Shown here piece by piece: positions 4,206-20,717 of a DNA stretch of 37,645 bases. Location of the stretch: the IMG/VR virus record IMGVR_UViG_3300013103_001392, positions 1-37,645 of that record; one strand, written 5' to 3'. The number at the start of each line of letters is the position of its first letter. Position 1 is the first letter of the stretch. Below the pieces are notes generated by a model, which was given only the letters and a program-made list of their open reading frames with translations, did not search any database and had not been told where the DNA came from. Position numbers and translations under genes: made by a program. The DNA is from a virus.

Positions 4206-4300
4206 GGATAATTTTAGAACCAAAACATTGGTTCTTTCCTAACTTGTGGGATTTATCCCACTTACAGCGGAAGCATAACCGCATTCAGGAGAAAGAATAT
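4206..4300 (-). ncRNA. Candidate TnpB guide RNA (reRNA/omegaRNA) 3' region
   Basis: In TnpB systems the guide RNA overlaps the 3' end of tnpB and runs through the right end of the element. Here the expected place has two stacked hairpins in the leftward sense: GTGGGAT/ATCCCAC at 4246-4261, inside the last codons, and AGAACCAA/TTGGTTCT with a 4-nt loop at 4216-4235. The spacer would be the roughly 16-20 nt just left of 4206 (leftward sense starting near 4205). The exact boundary is not provable here. Confidence 0.45.
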
Positions 4301-5363
4301 ATCTCTCTCCCAGTGTTGCTATGTTTCGAGCGGCTACCAAATCGGCATTTAGTTCATAACCGCACCGGGAACATTTAAAGATTGACTGACTTCGCCTATT
4401 CCTTCTATGGCGGAATCCACATTTGGGACAAGTAATCGAAGTCCCTCGTGGATTTACGGAGAACATCTCCAAGCCAGCCAATCGCAACTTATATTCTATA
4501 AAATTTAATAGTTCTCTAAAACTCCAATGTGCTATCATCTTTCTGGTTCGTTTTGTCAATTTCAATCTTGATCTAATTCCAATTAAATTCTCTACGGCTA
4601 TATTCGCTTTTTCCTTGATAGCAATGTTGACTATTTCTCTGCTAATTTTGTGGTTTATATCTCTCATCCACCTTCTCTCCTTGCCAGAAATCTTCTTTAG
4701 AGATTTTCTATTTTTCTGCAATTCTGCTCTTATCTTCTCAAAATATTGATGTTTCCATCTTATCCATTCTCCTCGCCAAAACTTATTTATTCGACCTTGA
4801 CTATCTGATAGAGTGGCAATTTTGGCAATTCCTAAATCCAATCCTAAAACTTTCTTTGCTTTTTTCTTTTCAGGATTTAGTTGCACCGTGATAAATGCAA
4901 ACCATTTCTTTCTTACCTTCTTAATCTCTACTCTACCACTCTTTTCTAATAATGGCTTATATTCATTTCTTATTTCAAATGGAAGCCAAATTCTCTTTCC
5001 TTTAATCAGATTTAAACCCAAATTTAATTTATCAATTCTTACACTATCTTGTCTGAAAGCACCGAAAATATTAGTAAATCTGGGAAATGTTTTCTTGCCC
5101 TTTTTGCGATAGAATGCTCTGGCTGTCTCTATAGATTTATCTAAAGCAGTTTGAAGATTTTGCGTTGCTATTTCTGGAAACTTTTTCTTTGCCTTTTGAT
5201 ATAACTCAGAATGTAATCGCTTCCTGCTGGTAGTTCTTAATCTTTGTATTTCTTTCAAGTAAAAATTGCAACATTCTGTGAATTCTCGACAGTAGTTTTC
5301 TAACAGAATTTCTTTTCTTTTATTAGGTTTTTTCAATTTTGCTTTGAGAGTGATTATCATCAC
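4239..5363 (-). CDS. tnpB: TnpB RNA-guided DNA endonuclease
   Basis: This 374-aa TnpB is the ancestor-type RuvC nuclease that uses a transposon-end RNA as guide. All three RuvC acidic residues are visible: Asp176 in VLGLDLG, Glu258 in IAVENLIG and Asp341 in ELNADLVAARN. The zinc ribbon uses Cys312/Cys315 and Cys331/Cys334. The N-terminal helical and central beta regions are full length, so the enzyme is probably active. Start ATGATG at 5358-5363, stop TAG at 4239-4241. It is the only gene in the element. In TnpB biology the protein cuts the vacated donor site to retain the element. Confidence 0.92.
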   Translation of the reverse strand: MMIITLKAKLKKPNKRKEILLENYCREFTECCNFYLKEIQRLRTTSRKRLHSELYQKAKKKFPEIATQNLQTALDKSIETARAFYRKKGKKTFPRFTNIFGAFRQDSVRIDKLNLGLNLIKGKRIWLPFEIRNEYKPLLEKSGRVEIKKVRKKWFAFITVQLNPEKKKAKKVLGLDLGIAKIATLSDSQGRINKFWRGEWIRWKHQYFEKIRAELQKNRKSLKKISGKERRWMRDINHKISREIVNIAIKEKANIAVENLIGIRSRLKLTKRTRKMIAHWSFRELLNFIEYKLRLAGLEMFSVNPRGTSITCPKCGFRHRRNRRSQSIFKCSRCGYELNADLVAARNIATLGERYILSPECGYASAVSGINPTS

Positions 5364-7786: not shown

Positions 7787-7938
7787 AATTCATTTTTAAG
7801 TTTATTTAAATAACCTTTAGAGGGAGAAGCGATTATGAGACCATAATTGTCTCTTACAAAATCTTTCTTCTTTTCATCCCAAATCGCCCATAATTTTAGA
7901 TTAAGAACTTCTGTTAAAAATTTCACTTTATATCTCAT
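7762..7938 (-). CDS. Small hypothetical protein, 58 aa
   Basis: The frame runs from ATG 7938 to TAG 7762-7764 and overlaps the following gene by 25 nt. The sequence begins MRYKVKFLTEVLNLKLWAIW and continues with a charged middle and a Lys-rich end. The beta-strand-like 'MRYKVKF' opening parallels the 57-aa protein at 8374-8547 (MKFRVKF). It is the first gene after structured RNA2 and the strong leftward promoter at 8262-8289, so it should be well transcribed. Function unknown. Confidence 0.55.
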   Translation of the reverse strand: MRYKVKFLTEVLNLKLWAIWDEKKKDFVRDNYGLIIASPSKGYLNKLKNELCINSLEQ

Positions 7939-7947
7939 AAGGAAGGA

Positions 7948-8199
7948 TTGCCAGTTTTACAATTTGCCCCGAAAACTGGCAAAAGAGGGCTGTTGCTCTT
8001 TCTTTTGAAGGGAGTTTCACTCCTCTTTAACTTCTTACATAACTGAACCCCGAATAAGGAAGTAGTGAGATAAAGCCGAATAATGGATTTAGCCCTAATA
8101 TCTCCTTGAAAAGGTTTTGGCTTCCATTATCTCGGCTATGGCTAAATAAGTAAATTATCTTTGAGAAAATTCACTACCTCCTTACCGTTGAGTTATGTA
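7948..8199 (-). ncRNA. Structured non-coding RNA candidate with pseudoknot (RNA2)
   Basis: Perfect or near-perfect pairings are 7948-7958/7972-7982 (11 bp), 7982-7987/7996-8001, 8011-8015/8019-8023, 8036-8044/8191-8199 (9 bp, closing), 8056-8068/8171-8183 (one mismatch), 8068-8073/8155-8160 and 8074-8087/8123-8137 (14 bp, one bulge). Segment 8087-8094 (ATTTAGCC) also pairs perfectly with 8140-8147, which interleaves with the previous helix and makes a pseudoknot. The consensus leftward promoter at 8262-8289 would start transcription near 8255, just before this element, which supports the minus strand. It could be a free RNA or a long leader of the 58-aa gene. No Rfam class is recognised. Confidence 0.6.
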
Positions 8200-8261
8200 T
8201 ATGTAATAGTTAAAAGAGCAACTAATTATTCAATCACTATTCATTCTTTCCTCTACTATTC

Positions 8262-8289
8262 ATTATACTCATTTTTGGAACTTTGTCAA
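8262..8289 (-). promoter_or_regulatory. Consensus sigma-70 promoter, leftward
   Basis: In the leftward sense, TTGACA (8284-8289) and TATAAT (8262-8267) are both perfect and separated by 16 bp. Transcription would start near 8255 and enter RNA2 and the genes leftward of it. A second TTGACA lies at 8338-8343 without a good partner. A DnaA box sits between them. Confidence 0.75.
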
Positions 8290-8373: not shown

Positions 8374-8547
8374 TTAATTGCTCTTTCTTTCAATTTCTTT
8401 AATAGAAGTTTTGCTCATAATCTCATCTATTGTAATGTTCTCCCAATATAAATAATCGGTAATATCCTCAATTGCTCTCTCTAATGCTTCGTTCTTATCT
8501 TTTGCTTCTATTATTGTGTCTATTTCAAATTTTACTCTAAATTTCAT
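8374..8547 (-). CDS. Small hypothetical protein, 57 aa
   Basis: The frame runs from ATG 8547 to TAA 8374-8376. The peptide begins MKFRVKFEIDTIIEAKDKNE and ends with a helical EIMSKTSIKEIERKSN. Its beta-strand plus 'EAKDKNEALERAIED' pattern is typical of very small phage alpha/beta proteins. AAAAGGTC at 8568-8575 is 20 nt upstream, and a near-palindromic GAACCATG-TTTC site lies at 8588-8601. Function unknown. Confidence 0.6.
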   Translation of the reverse strand: MKFRVKFEIDTIIEAKDKNEALERAIEDITDYLYWENITIDEIMSKTSIKEIERKSN

Positions 8548-8601
8548 AGTTAATTTAGAGTTAAATCGACCTTTTTTGAGTTAAAATTGAACCATGTTTC
8601 A

Positions 8602-8835
8602 CTAAAATCCTACTATTCTATAACATTCTAAATTGTGAAAATACAATCTTAAAGGATATTTCCAAGCTCGGCTCATTATTATTATTTCATGCTCTTGTTT
8701 ATCTCCGCTTCCTTTTACTTTCTCTACTATTGCTAAATTTTTATCTATCTTTTTCCAAAATTCCTCATAATCGTTGTTTTTAACTTTGTTTCCTAAATTT
8801 TCCCACCAACTTAAAATTTCTCTTTTTGTTTTCAT
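8602..8835 (-). CDS. Hypothetical 77-aa protein
   Basis: No family is recognised. The first half is helical and Trp-rich (REILSWWENLG, EEFWKKIDKN). The second half is basic and strand-like (HEIIIMSRAWKYPLRLYF). AAAAGGTC at 8861-8868 lies 25 nt before the ATG, and the leader between them is AT-rich and G-poor. Confidence 0.6.
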   Translation of the reverse strand: MKTKREILSWWENLGNKVKNNDYEEFWKKIDKNLAIVEKVKGSGDKQEHEIIIMSRAWKYPLRLYFHNLECYRIVGF

Positions 8836-8872
8836 TTTAATTGCTATGTTTAACTTATATGACCTTTTGAAC

Positions 8873-8986
8873 TTAATAGGAGTTTAATAACCTCAAAAGA
8901 GATATGAGTTTTATTAACTGAATAGCTAAATATATGCTCAATATGAAAGCTATCCCCGACAAAACTAAAACAATCTTTTTCATCAT
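8873..8986 (-). CDS. Single-pass membrane micropeptide, 37 aa
   Basis: The frame runs from tandem ATGs at 8981-8986 to TAA 8873-8875. After MMKK comes an uninterrupted hydrophobic stretch (IVLVLSGIAFILSIYLAI…), long enough for one membrane helix. The gene has its own AAAAAAGGTC leader (9005-9014, 18 nt before the start) and lies after a G-run motif, like its neighbours. Such peptides in phages can be lysis inhibitors or superinfection-exclusion factors, but this one is unassigned. Confidence 0.55.
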   Translation of the reverse strand: MMKKIVLVLSGIAFILSIYLAIQLIKLISLLRLLNSY

Positions 8987-9040
8987 AATTGAGATCTAAA
9001 TTTAGACCTTTTTTAACCCACCCACCCACCGCTTTTCTTC

Positions 9041-9700
9041 TTAAGTATAAACAATCTCGGCTTTTTTCATCGGCTTGGCTGTAAATTCTTTGATAAATCT
9101 TAAAACTTCTACTTCTCCGACTATGCTAACCTCATCAACTACTTTTTCATTCTCCCTGACTATTATTCTATAAACCTCACCTCCTAAAAGTTTATTCCAA
9201 TAATCTACCAAACTCTCGGCTAATTTTTCCGCCTTTTTTCTTGTTTTTGCTATCTTTTTACTTACTAAAACTAATCCAACATGAGAAGTATCCCAACCAC
9301 CAGGATCAGAGATGAAACCGCTATATCCAAGTTTCAACCAAACCCCGCCATGTATTAAACAACTTAACTCAAAAATCCAATACCCTTTCTCTCTTTCTGT
9401 TTTTATCCAATCTCTTTCTCCTCTATATAATTCGGCTGTTTCCTCTTTTGTTATTATGTCATTTCTTTCTATCCAAAAATCTCTATGATAATTTACTAAA
9501 AATACTTCCTTATCCTCTTTCAAATCATCAAATAAATCATCATAAAATTTCTCGTTTCTTATCTCAAACTCTAAACCTCTAAATTTTATAACCCTGTATG
9601 TTTCCGTCTTATATCCTGTTGGTATAATCTCTTCCCGCTCTTCTTCTTTTGCTCCTCTCCTTACTAAATCTGCCCAAATTGTTGAAGTTTCTTTTAACAT
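9041..9700 (-). CDS. Conserved phage hypothetical, 219 aa
   Basis: The protein carries the string LIHGGVWLKLGYSGF followed by SDPGGWDTSHVGLVLVSKK (about residues 115-150). I recall this pattern from a common phage family annotated only as hypothetical. The N-terminus is acidic, and the C-terminal part (AEKLAESLVDYWNKLLGGEVY) matches the same family layout. No catalytic motif is evident. ATG 9700 follows AAAAAGGTC at 9731-9739 by 30 nt. Stop TAA is at 9041-9043, 8 nt from a G-run motif. Confidence 0.7.
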   Translation of the reverse strand: MLKETSTIWADLVRRGAKEEEREEIIPTGYKTETYRVIKFRGLEFEIRNEKFYDDLFDDLKEDKEVFLVNYHRDFWIERNDIITKEETAELYRGERDWIKTEREKGYWIFELSCLIHGGVWLKLGYSGFISDPGGWDTSHVGLVLVSKKIAKTRKKAEKLAESLVDYWNKLLGGEVYRIIVRENEKVVDEVSIVGEVEVLRFIKEFTAKPMKKAEIVYT

Positions 9701-9876
9701 AGGAATCTCTTTTTTTTACTTAAATTGACCGACCTTTTTATAAATTTTGAACCTTATTTTCATTGTGGCTTAATTTATGCTCTTAAAAGAATTTTATTTA
9801 TTTTGTTTTGTTTTTTTCTTGTTTTGTAGTTAATTTTTTATGCTTTTTTAATCCCACCCGCCCACCGCTTCTCTCT

Positions 9877-10278
9877 TTACTTTTCATCTTTTATCATCTG
9901 TTTTATTCTGTCTTCTATCTCAAAATAGAGATCATTCTCGGCTGTAAAAAATGCTTGTCCCATTATCGCTTCTTCTGGCTCTTTGCCCTCCCACAATCCT
10001 GAATCTGTTTCTACCTCGTTGCTCTCTTCTATCACTTTAACTGCTGAACTTAATTCTGTGTTTCTATCTTCGCACCAATCACTTCTTAAAAATCCATACC
10101 AAGCACTATCTAAAAACTCAAAAATCTTATTGTTTAAATCCCAATTTTGGTATATTTCATCCCAGATCTCCTCGTCCGTCTTCTCTTTATTTTCTTTTAT
10201 TATCTCTCTTAACTCATCCTTATATTCGCTTATAAAATCATCGGCTAAATCTTTGATTGCTTGGTAGTATGTTTTCAT
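9877..10278 (-). CDS. Conserved-looking phage hypothetical, 133 aa
   Basis: The protein is acidic and mostly helical: a long first half (YYQAIKDLADDFISEYKDEL, EIWDEIYQNWDLNNKIFEFL) and a tail with GQAFFTAENDLYFEIEDRI. It resembles proteins found beside the 219-aa family in other phages, but I can offer no function. ATG 10278 is 29 nt after AAAAGGTC at 10308-10315, and a hairpin-forming G-rich segment lies further up at 10332-10371. Confidence 0.6.
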   Translation of the reverse strand: MKTYYQAIKDLADDFISEYKDELREIIKENKEKTDEEIWDEIYQNWDLNNKIFEFLDSAWYGFLRSDWCEDRNTELSSAVKVIEESNEVETDSGLWEGKEPEEAIMGQAFFTAENDLYFEIEDRIKQMIKDEK

Positions 10279-10373
10279 GGTTTTTTTGATTGTTTTAATT
10301 ATTGACCGACCTTTTATGATGCCTTAAAGCACCAACCGAGACCCACCCCTAAAGGATGGGTTACGGCTGGGAC

Positions 10374-10565
10374 TTAAAGCACCTTAAAATCTTTACCATT
10401 TTTCAATCCGTCTTTCAGCATTGCCTCTCTTATACTCTCAATATATCGCCAATCAATAGAGATACCGAGACCACCGACTAACTGCCAGCTTTCATAATTT
10501 AGATATTTTTTTGCCCATTTTTTGGCTTTATCGCTTAATAAAGCAAGTAAATATATAGTTTTCAT
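10374..10565 (-). CDS. Small hypothetical protein, 63 aa
   Basis: The start is placed at ATG 10565 because AAAAAGGTC (10593-10601) then lies 27 nt upstream, as for its neighbours. A longer frame to 10631 would translate that motif and the G-rich repeat. The peptide is MKTIYLLALLSDKAKKWAKK followed by an aromatic and glycine-containing region and a basic end. No family is recognised. Confidence 0.6.
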   Translation of the reverse strand: MKTIYLLALLSDKAKKWAKKYLNYESWQLVGGLGISIDWRYIESIREAMLKDGLKNGKDFKVL

Positions 10566-10627
10566 GGGATCTCTTTTTTTTGTTATTTTAAAGACCTTTT
10601 TAATTCCCAACCCGCCCACCGCTTTAA

Positions 10628-10861
10628 TCAATCTAATTTTTTAAACTCCCTCCATTGCTTAACTGATAACTCCTCGACCAATTTTAAGATCTCAATCTCT
10701 TTTTTAATTGATTCTATCCAAACCTTAATGTTTAAAAATCTTTGCTCTTCATGGCTCTTTTCAATCTCATTTTCTATTCTTCTACAATAATTCTTTATCT
10801 CATTTATACACTTCATTGCTAAAATTCTATGTTCTTTTAATTGTTTAAGATCTTTTTTCAT
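10628..10861 (-). CDS. Small coiled-coil hypothetical protein, 77 aa
   Basis: The start is set at ATG 10861, 33 nt after AAAAAAGGTC at 10895-10904; the longer frame to 10924 would read through the intergenic repeats. The product is highly charged and helical (KKDLKQLKEHRILAMKCINE, EIEKSHEEQRFLN), probably a coiled coil. It ends in TGA at 10628-10630. Function unknown. Confidence 0.6.
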   Translation of the reverse strand: MKKDLKQLKEHRILAMKCINEIKNYCRRIENEIEKSHEEQRFLNIKVWIESIKKEIEILKLVEELSVKQWREFKKLD

Positions 10862-10933
10862 GTTTTCTCTTTCTTTTTCTTTTTCAATTTTCCCGACCTT
10901 TTTTAAATAACCCAACCCGCCCACCGCTTTTAT

Positions 10934-11128
10934 TTATTTTCTCCTTGCTTCTTTAATAGCTTGCTCAATATCTCTCCTTAACAAGCATGGTTCATAGCCA
11001 TCTTTTTTACTTCTTTCAATGGCTAATTGCTCCGCTCTTTTAAGAACTTTATTCGTTATCAACTTTGAATTTTCTAACATTGATGCCATCGCTCCTAAAC
11101 TTTGGGGGATTCTCTTTTCTTTTTTCAT
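10934..11128 (-). CDS. Small basic hypothetical protein, 64 aa
   Basis: The peptide begins MKKEKRIPQSLGAMASMLEN and ends RDIEQAIKEARRK. It is helical, with a possible helix-turn-helix size, but no convincing DNA-binding signature. ATG 11128 is 24 nt after AAAAGGTC at 11153-11160, and a G-run motif at 11164-11182 lies just beyond. Function unknown. Confidence 0.6.
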   Translation of the reverse strand: MKKEKRIPQSLGAMASMLENSKLITNKVLKRAEQLAIERSKKDGYEPCLLRRDIEQAIKEARRK

Positions 11129-11188
11129 ATTGTTTTATTTTTTTTGAATTTAGACCTTTTGAACCCAAAACCCGCCCACCACTTAAGA

Positions 11189-11383
11189 TTATTTTAAAAT
11201 TTTTAATGCTTTACATTGTTTAACTTGCCAATCCGCCCAGTAAAATCCTTTATATTCTCTTGACCATTTTAACCATTTTAAACACTCCGCCCGTTCCTGT
11301 TTTTTTATCCCTTCATTTAAAATCCATAAAAAGCCCGCCAATAGTAGAAAAAGCCCCAAAATTCCCAAAATTTTTTTGATCAT
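11189..11383 (-). CDS. Small membrane-anchored protein, 64 aa
   Basis: The N-terminal MIKKILGILGLFLLLAGFLW is a signal-anchor-like hydrophobic helix with a positive start. The remaining 40 residues are Trp/Lys-rich with two cysteines. It is probably an inner-membrane peptide with a short extracytoplasmic tail. AAAAGGTC at 11403-11410 is 19 nt before the ATG. Function unknown; early phage membrane peptides often target host envelope processes. Confidence 0.6.
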   Translation of the reverse strand: MIKKILGILGLFLLLAGFLWILNEGIKKQERAECLKWLKWSREYKGFYWADWQVKQCKALKILK

Positions 11384-11470
11384 AGTGTTTATTTCTTATT
11401 AAGACCTTTTACGGGTAAAGAACCCACCGAGACGGACTATTTAAAAGATAGCCCGCCTCCGTTGATTCTC

Positions 11471-11623
11471 TTATTTTTGACCCAGTGCTTCCTTTCTACA
11501 TTTTAAAGAGCAGTATTTAGCATACGGTTTATTTTTGGGGATTTTACCCCCGCACCATATACAAGCAAGATAAAGTGGTTTCTTCTTTTTTCTTTTTTTC
11601 ATATTCTCTCCTCTTATTTTCAT
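11471..11623 (-). CDS. Small zinc-ribbon protein, 50 aa
   Basis: The frame runs from ATG 11623 to TAA 11471-11473. The zinc ribbon is CIWCGGKIPKNKPYAKYCSLKC, preceded by a Lys-rich stretch. Two starts compete. ATG 11623 lies 23 nt after AAAGGTC at 11647-11653, like its neighbours, whereas ATG 11602 has an AGGAGAG Shine-Dalgarno site 4 nt upstream. It is the first gene of the leftward block after the promoter at 11662-11690. A small imperfect hairpin (about 11430-11455) follows the gene. It is possibly a transcription or nucleic-acid-binding adaptor. Confidence 0.6.
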   Translation of the reverse strand: MKIRGENMKKRKKKKPLYLACIWCGGKIPKNKPYAKYCSLKCRKEALGQK

Positions 11624-11661
11624 GTTTTGTTTTATTTTTCATTTTCGACCTTTACACCTTT

Positions 11662-11690
11662 AGTATAATTGAACCAAAAATTCAGATCAA
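11662..11690 (-). promoter_or_regulatory. Leftward sigma-70-like promoter of the early block
   Basis: Read leftward, TTGATC (11685-11690), a 17-bp spacer and TATACT (11662-11667) form a good promoter. Its start near 11655 would put the AAAGGTC motif (11647-11653) at the very 5' end of the message for the zinc-ribbon gene. A better -35, TTGACA, lies at 11693-11698 but is 25 bp from the -10. Confidence 0.5.
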
Positions 11691-11729: not shown

Positions 11730-11793
11730 AAAACCGCCCCTGTGGAAAACTTTTTTCAGTTTTTAAATTTTAAAACCGCCCTGTGGAAAACTT
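11730..11793. repeat. Two direct repeats with DnaA-like boxes
   Basis: A unit of about 22 bp, AAAACCGCCC(C) followed by TGTGGAAAACTT, occurs at 11730-11752 and 11772-11793. Read leftward each contains TTTTCCACA, one change from the DnaA consensus TTATCCACA. A separate 13-bp direct repeat (AGCCAAAACAAGA) follows at 11799-11811 and 11875-11887. Their place in the divergent gap suggests an origin or a replication-linked control region. Confidence 0.45.
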
Positions 11794-11981
11794 CAGCAAG
11801 CCAAAACAAGAAAGAGAAAACAAAAAGAAAACAACCAGCCCTCCGGTGAAAAGAAAAGAAAACAAAACAAGACCAGCCAAAACAAGACAAGAAAAAGAAC
11901 CAGACCGCTGTGATCTAAAAAAAGAACAAGGAAAGAAGAAAAGAAAAGACCAGAAAAAAAAGAAAGAAGCCGGAAGGCAAG
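11794..11981. other. T-depleted tract in the divergent intergenic hub, possible origin
   Basis: Only six of 188 plus-strand bases are T; the rest is mainly A with G and C. This strand asymmetry is unlike any other part of the window. A Lys/Glu-rich frame (11783-12025) passes through, but its composition is explained by the tract. The adjacent DnaA-like repeats and outward promoters make a replication origin the leading guess. No stable hairpin is seen inside. Confidence 0.4.
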
Positions 11982-12137
11982 TCATTCTTCTCCTTCCACC
12001 CGAAATAAACTTCAAAACTCGCTAAGAACCATTGGTTATTAATTGTAAATTGCTATCCTCTAAATAGAAAATTCTATGAATACTATTCTTTGAACAGGAA
12101 ATGATCCTCAAATAATTCCAAAGAGTTAAGAATAATT

Positions 12138-13991: not shown

Positions 13992-16900
13992 ATGTTAGTT
14001 CCTTCGGATATTCCAGAATTATTAAAGCCAGGAAGAACGACTCCTTTGCCAGGAAGAATTTTAGTGCCTCCTCATGGAAGGCTAATTTGGCAAGGGAAAA
14101 AGAAAGCAATTCTTAGTTCTCGTTTAGACGAAAAATATATTGGCATTCCTGTTTACTTCATTGAAGGAAATAAAGCTTTGGGAATCATGGAGCTGAAAGC
14201 TCCTGAAAAGATTGATTTGAAGGATTTTAAGCGATTAAGGAAAATTCATAGAGTTACAGATGAAGAATATGAAAAATGGTGGAAAGGCAAGAAGTTTCTC
14301 TATTTCTATCCTTTAGAAGTTATTTCCAAATTTGATCCTCCAAAAGAAATTGAACGGCCGAAAGGAGCTCAGGTTTGGCTAAAGGCTGTTACTTTTAAAA
14401 GTCTGGAATTTCTTGATCCAAAAAAATTAACAGATGAAGAACTTCTTCAGGCTCATGAACGATTAAATAAATTTTGGAAAGAAAGATTAGCTTCAGAAGA
14501 AGAACTTATCAATTATAATCTTTTAATCCTTAATGAAATCAAAGAAAGAAAATTGGAAATTCCAGAGACTGAATTAGATAAAGAATCCAAGAGATTTCAA
14601 GAACAATTTAGCAAATCCGGCTTCAAAGTTTATTTTTTTGGAACAAAGGGTCTTGTTGAAGAAGAAGGCCCCGGACATAGATTCCATACAGCAATTCTTT
14701 ATGAATACAAAGGAAAACGTCTATTAGTTGATTATGGAAAAATTAATCAAGGAAATTTAGATAAGATAAAGCCTGATTATATCCTTACTTCACATAGTCA
14801 TCCCGACCATTTATTAGGCTTAAGAGATATGTCTGTTATTGTCTCAGAAGATACGGAGAAAGAAATCCCTAATCTTTATAAAGATTTTAACATCGATACT
14901 CGAGCACGATATAAATCTTATGAAACTTTCCAACTTGGTCCTTTTAAAATAACTCCGATTCCTGTTTTACATTCCATTCGAGCCAAAATGCACGTCTTTC
15001 TTATTGAAATGGGAGATAAACGAGTTCTTCAGGCAACAGATATTCTTGGCTGGCATAGTGGAGATAGAGAAAAGTATATCAAGAACTTAGATTTAGCTAT
15101 TATTGATGGTTCTTCCTTTTCAAAAACTCTAGCTAGAAGAAAAGGAAAAGAAGGAGAGCCTTATGGCCATGCAAGTATCGTCACTCAATTGAAAAATTGG
15201 TATAAACCTGAAAATGTTAAAAGAATAATTATCACTCATTTGGGCAAAGAGCCTTTGGAGATGGGAGATGAAGAATTGTTAAGAAAAGCCAAAGAAATAA
15301 CAAATGTTCCAATCGCTGTTGCAACTGATGAAACTATAATTAATCTAAGCGAAGATTTTGCTCCAATCTATACTTCTGGGAAAGTCTTGGGAAGAAGAGT
15401 ATCTCTTGAGGAAATTCTTCCTTATTTCAAAGATTTTCTAATTCAGAGACCGATCTGTTATTTAACCGGTGGAATAGTGAACCAAGGTTCAACTACGGGA
15501 GATATAGATCTCTTACTTCCTGATTGGCTAAGTTTTGATATGAGAAGGATAATAGAATTCAGAATAGCCAGAAGTGTTCCTTGGTGGATTAGAAGAAGAC
15601 TTCATTTTGTCTATGATCGCTTTGCTACTCCTTTCACAAACGCTTTGCCACTTTATAATTTAGCAATGTTAAGAAGCGAAGATGAAATTTTGAGACTTTC
15701 TGAAGTTTCTAAACAGTTACGGGAAAAGCCAAGAATTGAAAGCGCTATCAAAGACGCTGAGGCTTCAGCAAGAGAAGATAAGATAAAATTATTTAGATAT
15801 TTTCTTCCTCTAAAGCCAACCAGAGGATATTATCCAGAAAGAAGGCAAACCATTGATTTGTTTATTGAAGTAATGGAGGAAATGGGAGATTATCCGTTTT
15901 ATTCAACCAAAAAATACGATGGTTTTCATGTGGAAGTTCATAAAAAGGGAGATCGAGTTAAGATATTTTCCGAAGATGGAGAAGTTGTAACTTCTCGCTT
16001 GCCGAATGTTATAAAGGAAATTCAAGCCCTAAGCAAGGAAGATCTAGTCTTAATGGCAGAACTTGAAATTTGGCGAGACGGAAAACATTATCCAAGAGAA
16101 GTAGCGGCTGGCTATATGCATCAGAAGGGAACTCCCGATGATTCTGATGTTGTCTTGAATGTTTACGATTTACCTTACTTCAAAGAAGATATTCATAATA
16201 AGCCGTTTGAGAAACGATTAAAATTACTTGAATCTTTGCCTTTCAAACAAAGAACATGGAAGATTCCGAATACGAAAATAAAATTGAATTTTGCCCCTTA
16301 TCTTCTTTCAAAAAATAGAGAAGAATTAAGAAGACACACAGAGTTTTTAAGACGACTTCCCGGTTCGGAGGGTAATGTTTGTAAAACAAGAGATTTTATT
16401 TACAACTTAAAGGGAATTCGTTCTGGAATGGTCAAATTTCATAACTCAACTGTCGTTTATGGAAAAGTTCTTAGAGTGAAGGAAACAAAAGTCAAAGGAG
16501 TATTTAATTATTATTTTGGGCTCGAAAAAGGCGACATTAATGCGAAAGTAGAAGAATTAGAGAATCGATTTTATCATCGGGTTGGGAGAACATTCTCTAC
16601 TTCTTTGAAAGCGAAGGTTGGTGATGTTTTAGAAATTGAAGGAGAAACATTGAATGTTGAACATAATCTAAAAGATAACTCTTATAAGCTAAGTCTTTGG
16701 GCTCCGAGGGTGATGAAGAAAGTTGATAGAAAGCCAGATACGATAAAAGAAGCTATTGAAAGAGCGAAGAAAAATTTCTGCTTACAAGAAAAAGAAATTA
16801 CTGAAGAAGGAAAGATTATTTACTTATCAGAAATAGAAAAACTTCATTTAGAACAATTTCGAGCAGAAGGAATTGATGAAGATCTTGCTCATCCCAAAGA

Positions 16901-19900
16901 ACGTTATAAAGAACTGATTGCGGATCTTCGTTATCTGGGAAATTCTGCCTTCCCCAGATTGAAAAGTGGAAAAAGATGGGGAGAATGGATGCTTGAAGAT
17001 GTCTTGAAATATTTTGCAAAGATTGTTGATACTCTAAGAGGAATTTATTTCCCAATTCTTCCTCCTAAGAAGGGAAGTAAAGAATATTCTTCTTCCTACT
17101 GGCGGTGTTATCGCGAATCAGAGAAATATATGAGAAGCAAGCCTCCGAAAGAAAGCGAAATTAAGGATTGGGAAAAGAAACGCAAGGAATGGATGAAAAA
17201 AATTGAAAAAGGTTTCTTCCCTTATTTTGGAGGATTGAAACGTTTTAAAAACATCATTTTGCAATACTTCCCAGAGCATAAACGCTATATTGAAATTTTT
17301 GGAGGAAAGGGAGAAATGATTTGGGAAAAAGAGCCAAGTGAGGAAGAAATTTATAATGATAAAGATGAAGTTCTAGTAAAACTTTTTAGAATTTTAAAAA
17401 GACTAAGCTCTTCTGACTTAGTTAGACTTTCAAAGTTTAATTGGATTGGAGGGAGAGAATATTTTGAAAGTTTAAAACGGAAAAAACCAAAAAATGATTT
17501 AGAATTTTTTCATAAATGGATTTATATCCATAAATTCGGCAAACATCATGCTCAGCCAGATAAAGATGATTTTAACGAATTGATGACCGGGAAAAATATT
17601 TGGGCTAATTTGAAAAGAGAAATTGAGAAAAGTCAAGAACGTATAAAGAATGTGAAAATTTTTAATAAGGATTGGAGTGATGTTCTAGAAGAATTTGATT
17701 CTAAAGATACATTTATCTTTGCAGATCCTCCTTATCCCGGAAGAGAAATTTACTATAGGATTGCTGATATAGATTGGGAAAAATTATGGAAAAAGTTCTC
17801 AGATGCAAAGTCTAAAATTCTTATGATCTACATGAAGAATATTGATGAAGGAATTGACGAGAGAATCAAACCATTTTTCAAAAACTGGCATGTTAAGAGA
17901 TTTCGAGTCAGAAAATTGATCTCTCATTGGCATCCTAATATTCCGAAATATTTCTATTTCTATCTTATTGCTAATTATCCTTTGCAAAAATCTAAGATAG
18001 AAAAACAATCCGATCCTTATTTAGAATATCCAAGGCCAGAAAAGCCAAGAGAATATGTTATACAAAGACATTTCAGAGGCAAAAGTGTCTCAGATAGAAC
18101 TCCTATTATTATAAGAGAGAATGGGAAGGTAAAAATAGTTCCTATTCAAAATCTTTTTACTTATCAAGAAAGAAATATGACTCTGTGTGAAAAGAAGCTA
18201 AATGGAATTGAAATTTGGACTAAGAATGGTTGGTCAAAATTAAAAGGAGTAACAAGGCATCGTCAAGATTCACCAATTGTTAGATTGGTAACAATGGAAG
18301 GATTTTTAGAAACAACAAAAGATCATTCGGTTTTCACCCCAGATGGAAAAGCAATTGCGGTTTCTGAATTAAAAGAAGGAGATAGAATCGAACTAATTGA
18401 TCTTCCAAAATTGCAAGGAAATCAAGATGTTGATAAAGAAATTGCTTGGCTTTATGGTTTTTATCTAGCAGAAGGTTCAAAACGAAAGAATAGAGGAATA
18501 GTCATTTCGAATTCTAAAAGGGAACTATTAGAAAAGTGTCGAAAAATAGCTAATAAACTGGGATTGAAGTCGCATATTTATCCAGATAAGAATAATTGGA
18601 AGATAGAAATAAATTGGAATATTGGACCTATTTTTGAGGTTAGCGGATGTCATGAGGTAAAAGAACGTTTAGCTCGTTGGAAAGTGGTTCCTTCATGTGT
18701 TTTCTCTTGGAATAAGGAAAGTCAGAAAGCTTTTTTAGAAGGCTATTTCGCAGGAGATGGGATTAATATTTCAGAAAAGCACATTGAGTGGGCTAGTTCT
18801 TCTCAGAGTGTTGCTCAAGGAATTCTTGTCTTAGCTAAAAATCTTTATAATTTTCCTTATTTCAGAATTCTTCTTCAAAACGATGACAAGAGTGATGTTT
18901 ATCGAATCGTCTTAGCTAAAGAGCATAATCTATTACAGAAAGAAAGAAATGTTTTGAAGAAAATAATAAAGGCAAAGTCTTTGGATGGAGTGGGAGAGAA
19001 AAATAATAACTTCAGAACTGGAAAATATGTAAGTAAAAATCAAGAAGAATTTTTCATCTATTCTAAAAGAAGATGGGTCTATGATGTAGAGACAGAAAAT
19101 CATGATTTCCTAGCTGGAATAGGAAGAATTCGAGCACATAATAGCCATCATTTAGATCTAAGAATAAAACACAATGATTATCTAATTGGCTGGACTATCG
19201 CTGATGCTGTAAAAGGGAAGCCTGGAAAACCAATAACAACATTAGAGCAGGCTAAGGCATTAGATCAAAATGAGATTTCAAAAATAGATTGGAAAAAGGG
19301 GGTTCCTAAACTAAGACCTGGAATAAAGCCTGGATTTAAAGAAAAGTATGCAGAACTTGCTGCAATGAGGAAAAGTCCTGAGCCAGTTCCTTGGCTGAAT
19401 GTTGAAGGAGTTGTTCCTAAGGGTTCTGTAGGAGCAACGAAACAATTTCCAGGCGTATTTCATATAATCGATAAAGGATATTGTGAGTTCGGAGCTTTAA
19501 AGCCCTACTTTTGTGAATATTTTTTTTCTAAAGGCAAACTTAAAGGCAGATGGTTTTTTAGACAGTTAAGGCCTTCTGAATTTCGAGGAACAACAAAGAA
19601 AGCAAACGAAATAATTCCTCCATCCAGAGAAACAGAATTTAGACAAGAAGCTGCTTGGTTTTTCATTAAGCCTATTGATGAAACTCCATATGTAATTTCT
19701 GATGCTGCTGTTGAGAAGAAATGGATTCCCCCTTATGGGATTTCTGCTTTGCCAGAAAAGATTAGAAAGAAGATTCCTAAAGAATTTCAGTATTGGAAAG
19801 AAAAAGATGAGAAGAAACGAATAGAAATTCGAGATAAACTTGTAAAAGAATTAGCAGAGAAATTAATTGAAAAGCGTTTAACTCCTGGAATGCGTTGGGC

Positions 19901-20717
19901 TAAAGCTGCTTATCGTTATGTTTTGTCAAAACAAGTTATGACATTTTGGCGTCGAACTCCCCTTCCGGGCAAGATTAAGAGAGTGCAAGAGGCTCTTAAC
20001 GACTTTTTGAAACTACATCCTTTAAAGAAAGAATGGATAGGAGATGCAATCAAATGGTTGGAATCAAGACCAAATGAAATGAAAGAACTTATTGCTCAAG
20101 AACTTCGTTTGAAAAAGAGCAGAGAAATCAGGTGGGTTTTACAACATCACTGGTGGCGTGGACAAAAAGTAATCAGAGCTGGGGCATCAAGAGAACATTG
20201 GGATTTGCGTCTAGATTTCCCTTCTAGAGAAGGATTAATGCATTTTGTTCTAATGCAGAATCCTTTGAAAAATAAAGAAGTTACAGCAATTTTAAAACCT
20301 TGTAAATATAAAGAATGGATGAATTTTTCTGGCTATATCCCTCCCGAGAATGAAAGAAAGAAGATGTCGAAAGAAGAACTAGCAAAATTCCCACCCGGAA
20401 TTGAAGAAGCCAATCCGACTAAAGAAACAAGCTGCTTTATGGAGATTTTAGATAAGGGAAAAGCAATTGTTTATGAGGATGGAGATTTATTCAAAAAATT
20501 TGAATTTAAAGGCAATAAATTAAAAGGACTTTGGGTATTTATAAGAGAGAATACAAGCAGTTTTTGGATTATGAAGAAGAGTTCTCTTCCGAAAACAGAA
20601 AAAATCTTAAGAATTCATGAAAATTGTAAGTATTTTGAGAATGGATATTGTAAATTGAAAGAAAAACAAGTTGATCCTAAAGCTCCAGCTTGTCCTAAAT
20701 TCGAGTCCAAAGAGTAA
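13992..20717 (+). CDS. 2241-aa multi-enzyme DNA-processing protein (ASCH-like, MBL, NTase-like, ligase, D12 methylase, two LigD-PE domains, intein)
   Basis: Domains in order: ASCH/PUA-like (about 15-115); metallo-beta-lactamase with HSHPDH at 268-273; nucleotidyltransferase-like GSTTGDID at 499-506; ATP-dependent DNA ligase with KYDG at 641-644 (Lys641 the adenylated candidate), AELEIW (689-694) and a GMVK motif V, then an OB-like region ending WAPRV; D12-class adenine methylase with FFPYFGG (1075-1081) and DPPY (1245-1248); LigD-type 3'-phosphoesterase (EYVIQRH…HHLDLR) split by an intein at 1365-1717; a helical linker; a second phosphoesterase copy with WVLQHH and EHWDLRLD (about 2047-2075); and a four-cysteine tail. 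All key residues I can place are present. It occupies the MuF slot between portal and protease. Cleavage into parts by the phage protease is possible. Confidence 0.8.
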   Translation: MLVPSDIPELLKPGRTTPLPGRILVPPHGRLIWQGKKKAILSSRLDEKYIGIPVYFIEGNKALGIMELKAPEKIDLKDFKRLRKIHRVTDEEYEKWWKGKKFLYFYPLEVISKFDPPKEIERPKGAQVWLKAVTFKSLEFLDPKKLTDEELLQAHERLNKFWKERLASEEELINYNLLILNEIKERKLEIPETELDKESKRFQEQFSKSGFKVYFFGTKGLVEEEGPGHRFHTAILYEYKGKRLLVDYGKINQGNLDKIKPDYILTSHSHPDHLLGLRDMSVIVSEDTEKEIPNLYKDFNIDTRARYKSYETFQLGPFKITPIPVLHSIRAKMHVFLIEMGDKRVLQATDILGWHSGDREKYIKNLDLAIIDGSSFSKTLARRKGKEGEPYGHASIVTQLKNWYKPENVKRIIITHLGKEPLEMGDEELLRKAKEITNVPIAVATDETIINLSEDFAPIYTSGKVLGRRVSLEEILPYFKDFLIQRPICYLTGGIVNQGSTTGDIDLLLPDWLSFDMRRIIEFRIARSVPWWIRRRLHFVYDRFATPFTNALPLYNLAMLRSEDEILRLSEVSKQLREKPRIESAIKDAEASAREDKIKLFRYFLPLKPTRGYYPERRQTIDLFIEVMEEMGDYPFYSTKKYDGFHVEVHKKGDRVKIFSEDGEVVTSRLPNVIKEIQALSKEDLVLMAELEIWRDGKHYPREVAAGYMHQKGTPDDSDVVLNVYDLPYFKEDIHNKPFEKRLKLLESLPFKQRTWKIPNTKIKLNFAPYLLSKNREELRRHTEFLRRLPGSEGNVCKTRDFIYNLKGIRSGMVKFHNSTVVYGKVLRVKETKVKGVFNYYFGLEKGDINAKVEELENRFYHRVGRTFSTSLKAKVGDVLEIEGETLNVEHNLKDNSYKLSLWAPRVMKKVDRKPDTIKEAIERAKKNFCLQEKEITEEGKIIYLSEIEKLHLEQFRAEGIDEDLAHPKERYKELIADLRYLGNSAFPRLKSGKRWGEWMLEDVLKYFAKIVDTLRGIYFPILPPKKGSKEYSSSYWRCYRESEKYMRSKPPKESEIKDWEKKRKEWMKKIEKGFFPYFGGLKRFKNIILQYFPEHKRYIEIFGGKGEMIWEKEPSEEEIYNDKDEVLVKLFRILKRLSSSDLVRLSKFNWIGGREYFESLKRKKPKNDLEFFHKWIYIHKFGKHHAQPDKDDFNELMTGKNIWANLKREIEKSQERIKNVKIFNKDWSDVLEEFDSKDTFIFADPPYPGREIYYRIADIDWEKLWKKFSDAKSKILMIYMKNIDEGIDERIKPFFKNWHVKRFRVRKLISHWHPNIPKYFYFYLIANYPLQKSKIEKQSDPYLEYPRPEKPREYVIQRHFRGKSVSDRTPIIIRENGKVKIVPIQNLFTYQERNMTLCEKKLNGIEIWTKNGWSKLKGVTRHRQDSPIVRLVTMEGFLETTKDHSVFTPDGKAIAVSELKEGDRIELIDLPKLQGNQDVDKEIAWLYGFYLAEGSKRKNRGIVISNSKRELLEKCRKIANKLGLKSHIYPDKNNWKIEINWNIGPIFEVSGCHEVKERLARWKVVPSCVFSWNKESQKAFLEGYFAGDGINISEKHIEWASSSQSVAQGILVLAKNLYNFPYFRILLQNDDKSDVYRIVLAKEHNLLQKERNVLKKIIKAKSLDGVGEKNNNFRTGKYVSKNQEEFFIYSKRRWVYDVETENHDFLAGIGRIRAHNSHHLDLRIKHNDYLIGWTIADAVKGKPGKPITTLEQAKALDQNEISKIDWKKGVPKLRPGIKPGFKEKYAELAAMRKSPEPVPWLNVEGVVPKGSVGATKQFPGVFHIIDKGYCEFGALKPYFCEYFFSKGKLKGRWFFRQLRPSEFRGTTKKANEIIPPSRETEFRQEAAWFFIKPIDETPYVISDAAVEKKWIPPYGISALPEKIRKKIPKEFQYWKEKDEKKRIEIRDKLVKELAEKLIEKRLTPGMRWAKAAYRYVLSKQVMTFWRRTPLPGKIKRVQEALNDFLKLHPLKKEWIGDAIKWLESRPNEMKELIAQELRLKKSREIRWVLQHHWWRGQKVIRAGASREHWDLRLDFPSREGLMHFVLMQNPLKNKEVTAILKPCKYKEWMNFSGYIPPENERKKMSKEELAKFPPGIEEANPTKETSCFMEILDKGKAIVYEDGDLFKKFEFKGNKLKGLWVFIRENTSSFWIMKKSSLPKTEKILRIHENCKYFENGYCKLKEKQVDPKAPACPKFESKE
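18084..19142 (+). mobile_element. LAGLIDADG intein inside the first phosphoesterase domain
   Basis: The 353-residue insertion runs from Ser1365 to Asn1717 of the host protein. Block A is SVSDRTPIIIR and block B is TKDH (1442-1445). Block C/E-type LAGLIDADG motifs are LYGFYLAEG (1487-1495) and FLEGYFAGDG (1581-1590). Block F/G is VYDVETENHDFLAG…IRAHN, followed by Ser1718 as +1 residue. Splicing would rejoin HFRGK to SHHLDLR, restoring the conserved phosphoesterase motif. Nucleophile Ser1, penultimate His and terminal Asn are all present, so splicing should work. The homing endonuclease retains both motifs with the catalytic acidic residues. Confidence 0.88.

Follow-up and report, generated by a model that had tools for sequence, protein, structure and literature searches.

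G-run elements and hairpins share the position behind early-gene stop codons in a group of uncultivated tailed phages

G-run elements of near-identical sequence, placed behind the stop codons of small early genes in an uncultivated tailed phage, sit where related phages carry strong hairpins, which suggests that both serve one function between neighbouring genes. The sequence analysed, called here the window, is the whole phage record (G000; 37,645 bases; G+C about 34% by base counts). Its small early genes are oriented leftward, up to about 11.6 kb, and beyond them lie rightward structural genes, including those for portal, head maturation protease and major head protein. Gene starts are those of automatic calls, with the first ATG taken. 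A candidate sigma-70-type promoter, TTGATC-N17-TATACT, is located at 11662..11690 (minus strand), at the head of the leftward operon. It is a consensus match only, and promoter-like matches occur in the region at chance level (19 vs 19.9 expected).

All five G elements of the window lie on the mRNA (minus) strand and follow the consensus stop-N(5-8)-G(C/T)GGTGGG(C/T)GGG-T(1-4)-GGG. The first (GTGGTGGGCGGGTTTTGGG, 11164..11182) is found 6 nt past the stop of gene 11189-11383, and the second (GCGGTGGGCGGGTTGGG, 10911..10927) 6 nt past that of gene 10934-11128. The third has the same sequence (GCGGTGGGCGGGTTGGG, 10606..10622) and lies 5 nt past the stop of gene 10628-10861, while the fourth (GCGGTGGGCGGGTGGG, 9853..9868) and the fifth (GCGGTGGGTGGGTGGG, 9017..9032) are each placed 8 nt behind the stop, of genes 9877-10278 and 9041-9700, respectively. 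The spacing from the stop is therefore 5-8 nt for all window copies. The sequence AGCGG, which could invite a Chi-like reading, is present in four of the five; the sites of the G elements are confined to gaps, which speaks against that reading.

Between 8836 and 11470 there are eight gaps, and the exact core occurs in five of them, whereas the mean over 2000 dinucleotide shuffles was 0.007, and no shuffle had more than 1. When one mismatch was allowed, GGTGGGYGGG produced 8 overlapping matches in the window, vs 0.33 expected from dinucleotide shuffling; 7 of these are located at the five G elements, and the remaining one, a 1-mismatch match at 9292, is unrelated. A sequence-only reading of the window had described five near-identical elements, oriented with the mRNA in the gaps between genes, and these figures bear it out. 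The elements are not, as it had also stated, in consecutive gaps, since gap 10279-10373, between two gaps with G elements (G gaps), holds a hairpin. Four G runs separated by loops of 1-4 nt are indeed present, in the window copies as in the L030 copy described below, but the first consists of GG, or of G-bulge-GG, which makes the run lengths 2-3-3-3 rather than four times GGG.

Two window gaps carry hairpins in the post-stop slot, both on the minus strand: one at 11418..11470 (gap 11384-11470; -29.7 kcal/mol, z -4.9), behind gene 11471-11623, and one at 10329..10373 (gap 10279-10373; -30.5 kcal/mol, z -4.8), behind gene 10374-10565. G gaps are devoid of hairpins (z between -0.5 and 1.0), hairpin gaps contain no G element, and no gap has both. 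In order to extend the comparison, 53 early gaps from seven phages were classified, a hairpin being called strong at MFE <= -10 and z <= -2, thresholds set by us: 22 gaps have strong hairpins, 6 have G elements (5 in the window and 1 in L030), and 25 have neither. Since many gaps of the phage group lack both, a post-stop structure is not required. An intrinsic (Rho-independent) terminator requires a T run behind a GC-rich hairpin. Downstream of the G elements, and of both window hairpins, an A-rich stretch is found instead of a T run, and the reading of either as intrinsic terminators was ruled out for this reason. Nor was there a signal when the G element was tested for pairing at long range with the transcript of the operon (best duplex -21.6, shuffled elements -19.9 +/- 2.4).

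Relatives of the window are few in the collections searched. A search with the head protein identified a colinear relative, L013/L014, corresponding to contig IMGVR_UViG_3300033149_005718, with 94% identity in the head and 86% in the portal protein. Portal searches yielded further relatives at 64-74%, and a search with a clamp-like protein added L035, L036 and L037, of which L037 is the contig of L030. Scans of genome contigs did not reveal a related prophage. In L013/L014 the G element was not found, and significant hairpins are present in 5 of the 7 gaps tested. Pattern scans of the viral collection returned, beyond the window, only one copy that looked genuine, a single G element in L030, located on the coding strand, as are the five window copies, 7 nt past the stop of an unrelated gene. 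The other matches look like chance coding matches, nearly all from GC-richer contigs. In L045, a contig that equals the window in AT-richness, the match looks by eye like coding sequence, and the G-rich stretches of L035 are antisense to genes, those examined encoding proline-rich C-termini. As an observation in its own right, L035 has at 14436-16196 (plus strand) C-rich coding ends, which give several neighbouring genes such proline-rich C-termini. Conservation of the G element is shallow, because only two phages carry it in the collection searched.

Three genes followed by a G element in the window could be compared with homologues. Gene 9877-10278 has a homologue, 69% identical, at 2574-2972 of L020, where the stop TAG lies within a long hairpin. 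For gene 9041-9700, a search with its 219-aa protein alone found no relatives; tblastn recognised a homologue, 42% identical, in L026, and a hairpin follows it. The homologue of gene 11189-11383 in L013 (51% identical) is directly followed by AAAAAGGTC, with no structure. The G element is thus replaced by a hairpin in two of three cases (L020 and L026) and by nothing in one (L013). The sequence-only reading had named relatives which keep the genes without the G runs as evidence against it, and this is, in part, what was seen: G runs are lost where relatives keep the gene, so that the quadruplex as such is not conserved, while post-stop structure often is. Its suggestion that the elements isolate genes agrees well with the comparison, in that the slot is shared with hairpins and the surrounding small genes are for the most part non-homologous between phages that are otherwise colinear; it is weakened by the G runs not being kept.

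Related hairpins are found in four gaps of L020 (at 1902, 2576, 3516 and 3845, minus strand); they are paralogous copies which share the outer stem. Their inner stems differ in sequence and still pair (TTGCTG/CGGCAA, TAGCCA/TGGCTA, TAGCCC/GGGCTA), from which it follows that pairing has been kept. This variation is what selection for pairing would leave, although the copies are few. In two copies of the family, the stop codon TAG is located inside the stem.

A G-quadruplex-forming sequence is defined by four G runs on one strand, separated by loops of 1-7 nt. This rule is obeyed by all five G elements and by the L030 copy, either as 2-3-3-3 or as bulged 3-3-3-3, and they could fold as two-tetrad or bulged three-tetrad quadruplexes. 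The G4 model of ViennaRNA prefers the quadruplex in three of the five window gaps and in L030, with a margin of about 0.4 to 5 kcal/mol, far below the strength of the hairpins. G4Hunter scores are 1.2-1.4 over 25 nt and 1.63-1.94 for the G element alone. By these predictions quadruplex formation is plausible, not strong. A protein-binding site would also fit, since base identity extends beyond the G runs. Literature searches on phage intergenic quadruplexes turned up nothing close.

A short leader motif is associated with the early genes. AAAGGTC is the commonest 7-mer 5' of early genes in the window and L013, and its mutated or reversed versions occur there 0 or 1 times. In the window and L013/L014, it precedes 30 of 50 early starts, vs 1 of 34 late starts. 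Across nine related phages 68 copies were counted, at a median of 27 nt 5' of the ATG, followed by a leader which is A-rich, where position -3 is A and position -1 is T. The early starts of the window and L013, 50 in all, are without a Shine-Dalgarno match. At several genes with a good sigma-70-like promoter (for example L017 at about 3878 and L013 at about 8382), AAAGGTC is found just 3' of the -10 box, which places it in the transcript leader.

All window copies are on the minus strand. AAAGGTC lies at 11647..11653, before gene 11471-11623. The form AAAAGGTC is found at 11403..11410 before gene 11189-11383, at 11153..11160 before gene 10934-11128, at 10895..10902 before gene 10628-10861, at 10593..10600 before gene 10374-10565, at 10308..10315 before gene 9877-10278 (in a hairpin gap), and at 9731..9738 before gene 9041-9700. 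It is also found at 9005..9012, before the minus-strand ORF 8873-8986 (37 aa, membrane-like), and at 8861..8868 and 8568..8575, before genes 8602-8835 and 8374-8547, where it is accompanied by neither a G element nor a hairpin. A repeated unit of stop, G4, motif and start had been proposed for the window. AAAAGGTC does follow four of the G elements at a distance of 4-9 nt, and the fifth at 115 nt, but AAAGGTC also occurs with hairpins, or with neither type of element, and is present before most early genes regardless of the G element. It is therefore not part of a G4-specific cassette, and this unit was ruled out.

Other features were observed in the window and its colinear relative. A transposase-like gene at 4239-5363 (minus strand) matches PHROG 506 (integration and excision, E 9.9e-51) and has zinc-finger-like cysteines at the C-terminal; L013 has no match at the corresponding place. 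An ORF of 2241 aa at 13992-20717 (plus strand) is matched in parts by its L013/L014 homologue, from which the middle is mostly absent, only a short piece of residues ~1057-1717 being matched. The leftward and rightward gene sets are divided by a long purine-rich (A/G) tract, at 11770-12015 in the window and 10640-11034 in L013, with no convincing gene inside. Long non-coding stretches, at corresponding places in the two phages (window 7936-8265 and L013 7456-7765, both minus strand), are predicted to fold strongly, at about -99 and -109 kcal/mol, respectively. Their stems have diverged and still pair, and patches AACGGT, ATTCGGGGTT and TGAAACTCCC are conserved. Rfam returned no match at gathering score, including for stretch 7936-8265, which is possibly an uncharacterised structured phage RNA.

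The reading that we favour, tentatively and at a little short of an even chance, is that early cistrons are separated by a modular boundary, of which the G elements represent one version. Such a module would be ordered as stop codon, 5-8 nt, compact RNA structure, AAAGGTC, A-rich leader without Shine-Dalgarno sequence, and next start; the structure would be a long hairpin in most structured gaps of the phage group and the G-run element in five window gaps. As modelled, it most likely protects or insulates the 3' end of the upstream mRNA. Behind the stop, it would block 3'-to-5' exonucleases and likewise keep neighbouring genes from interfering structurally. Within a shared transcript, which probably begins at the promoter-like site 11690-11662, each small early gene would retain a stable 3' end and an open leader of its own, and genes could be swapped as self-contained units. 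We infer that the elements would act as RNA rather than DNA, that the G runs may fold as quadruplexes and that they would protect ends. A more specific proposal is rather doubtful: that in this phage the usual 3' boundary of an early gene has changed from a hairpin to an RNA G-quadruplex, the two being interchangeable end-protection/insulation modules, linked to AAAGGTC as a new start-associated motif in the leader.

It is unlikely, though worth weighing, that G elements and the relatives' hairpins work at the DNA level, as short repeats whose main use is as joints at which small early genes recombine and are shuffled, in the manner of the T4-type cassettes. Between the colinear phages the flanks are alike, but the small genes of 8374-11623 are mostly non-homologous. 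Homologous small genes occur in different phages with other neighbours and other post-stop elements, and the hairpins form repeat families within L020. However, 16-19 bp is short for homologous exchange, recombination does not need a strict 5-8 nt spacing from the stop nor a constant strand, and L013 has no G element in common with the window. The sequence-only reading had called for a comparison of gene swapping in relatives: small-gene content does differ strongly, and because of this a contribution of the elements to gene shuffling is possible, but a crossover inside an element was not seen. Distinctly unlikely, in our judgement, is a protein-binding DNA site, at which a phage regulator would stop or pause elongation between genes, as at stoperators or as proposed for the ESAS repeats of cluster K mycobacteriophages. 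The G element is near-identical between copies, asymmetric, oriented with transcription and located in gaps, as stoperators are, and for the cluster K repeats a role as protein sites was judged the more likely one (PMC3203893). A sequence-specific site, however, leaves unexplained the sequence-unrelated hairpins in the same slot, and no regulator was identified in this analysis.

Control of the ribosome, with the post-stop structure governing whether ribosomes terminate, read through or re-initiate at the next start, would fit a distance of 5-8 nt, which corresponds to the leading edge of a terminating ribosome, as well as the two L020 copies with the stop TAG itself in the stem. The next start is 50-176 nt off, far for re-initiation, and we consider this explanation very unlikely. 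Just as little probability is given to a neutral repeat, spread within this genome without function. The restriction of the G element to two phages of the collection searched, and its absence behind homologous genes of relatives, are what such a repeat would leave; fixed spacing and strand, alternation with hairpins, and an element sequence kept while its flanks diverged speak against it.

If the modular boundary is real, these phages offer a natural swap experiment, in which G-quadruplex and hairpin occupy the same post-stop slot behind homologous genes, and matched constructs would allow a direct test of what RNA quadruplexes do at the mRNA ends of bacteria. The results also point to AAAGGTC as a group-wide leader motif, among uncultivated phages in which the early genes are devoid of Shine-Dalgarno sequences.

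Several known systems resemble parts of this arrangement. With bacterial RNA G-quadruplex motifs, the G elements share four G runs, short loops and location on the mRNA strand; unlike them, they have a first run that is GG, or bulged G-N-GG, a modest prediction and a fixed post-stop position. In T4-type phages, Arbiol et al. 2010 (Genome Biol Evol 2:140) reportedly described mobile promoter/stem-loop cassettes in gaps of the hypervariable early region, which are said to carry an early promoter and to aid gene shuffling. That work is cited in PMC4177764. Hairpins in early-region gaps and variable gene content are common to both systems, whereas T4-type cassettes have hairpins, not G-run elements, and the consensus search of the region gave no promoter-like match on the minus strand of the G gaps. 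Stoperators are located in gaps and oriented with transcription. In cluster A mycobacteriophages they are many asymmetric sites across the genome (PMC9283540). They are DNA sites bound by a repressor, while no such protein is known for the G elements, whose slot is also taken by unrelated hairpins. The T4 RegB processing site GG*AGRAYARAA is, like AAAGGTC, a short motif in early-gene gaps followed by an A-rich stretch (PMC3014915). RegB cleavage falls mainly in translation initiation regions, in many cases at the Shine-Dalgarno sequence, whereas AAAGGTC lies some 27 nt before the start, in leaders without one.

In cluster K mycobacteriophages, a short asymmetric motif, SAS, precedes many non-structural gene starts; it is 13 bp long (GGGATAGGAGCCC) and found within a few nt of the start. 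About half of the SAS sites have a 17-bp inverted repeat (ESAS) just upstream, in larger-than-usual gaps, and the ESAS repeats do not support RNA pairing; the sections seen of PMC3203893, from which this description is taken, describe no G-run version. AAAGGTC has 7 bp and a median distance of 27 nt from the start; unlike ESAS, the hairpins reported here keep their pairing, occur in 22 of 53 early gaps with varied sequence and length, and give way elsewhere to G elements. Because motif, distance and RNA-pairing evidence differ, the AAAGGTC system is not a member of SAS/ESAS. The latter is nevertheless the nearest described arrangement, with a similar layout: an asymmetric motif, oriented with transcription, before many starts of non-structural genes, with an additional element, here a hairpin or a G element, upstream.
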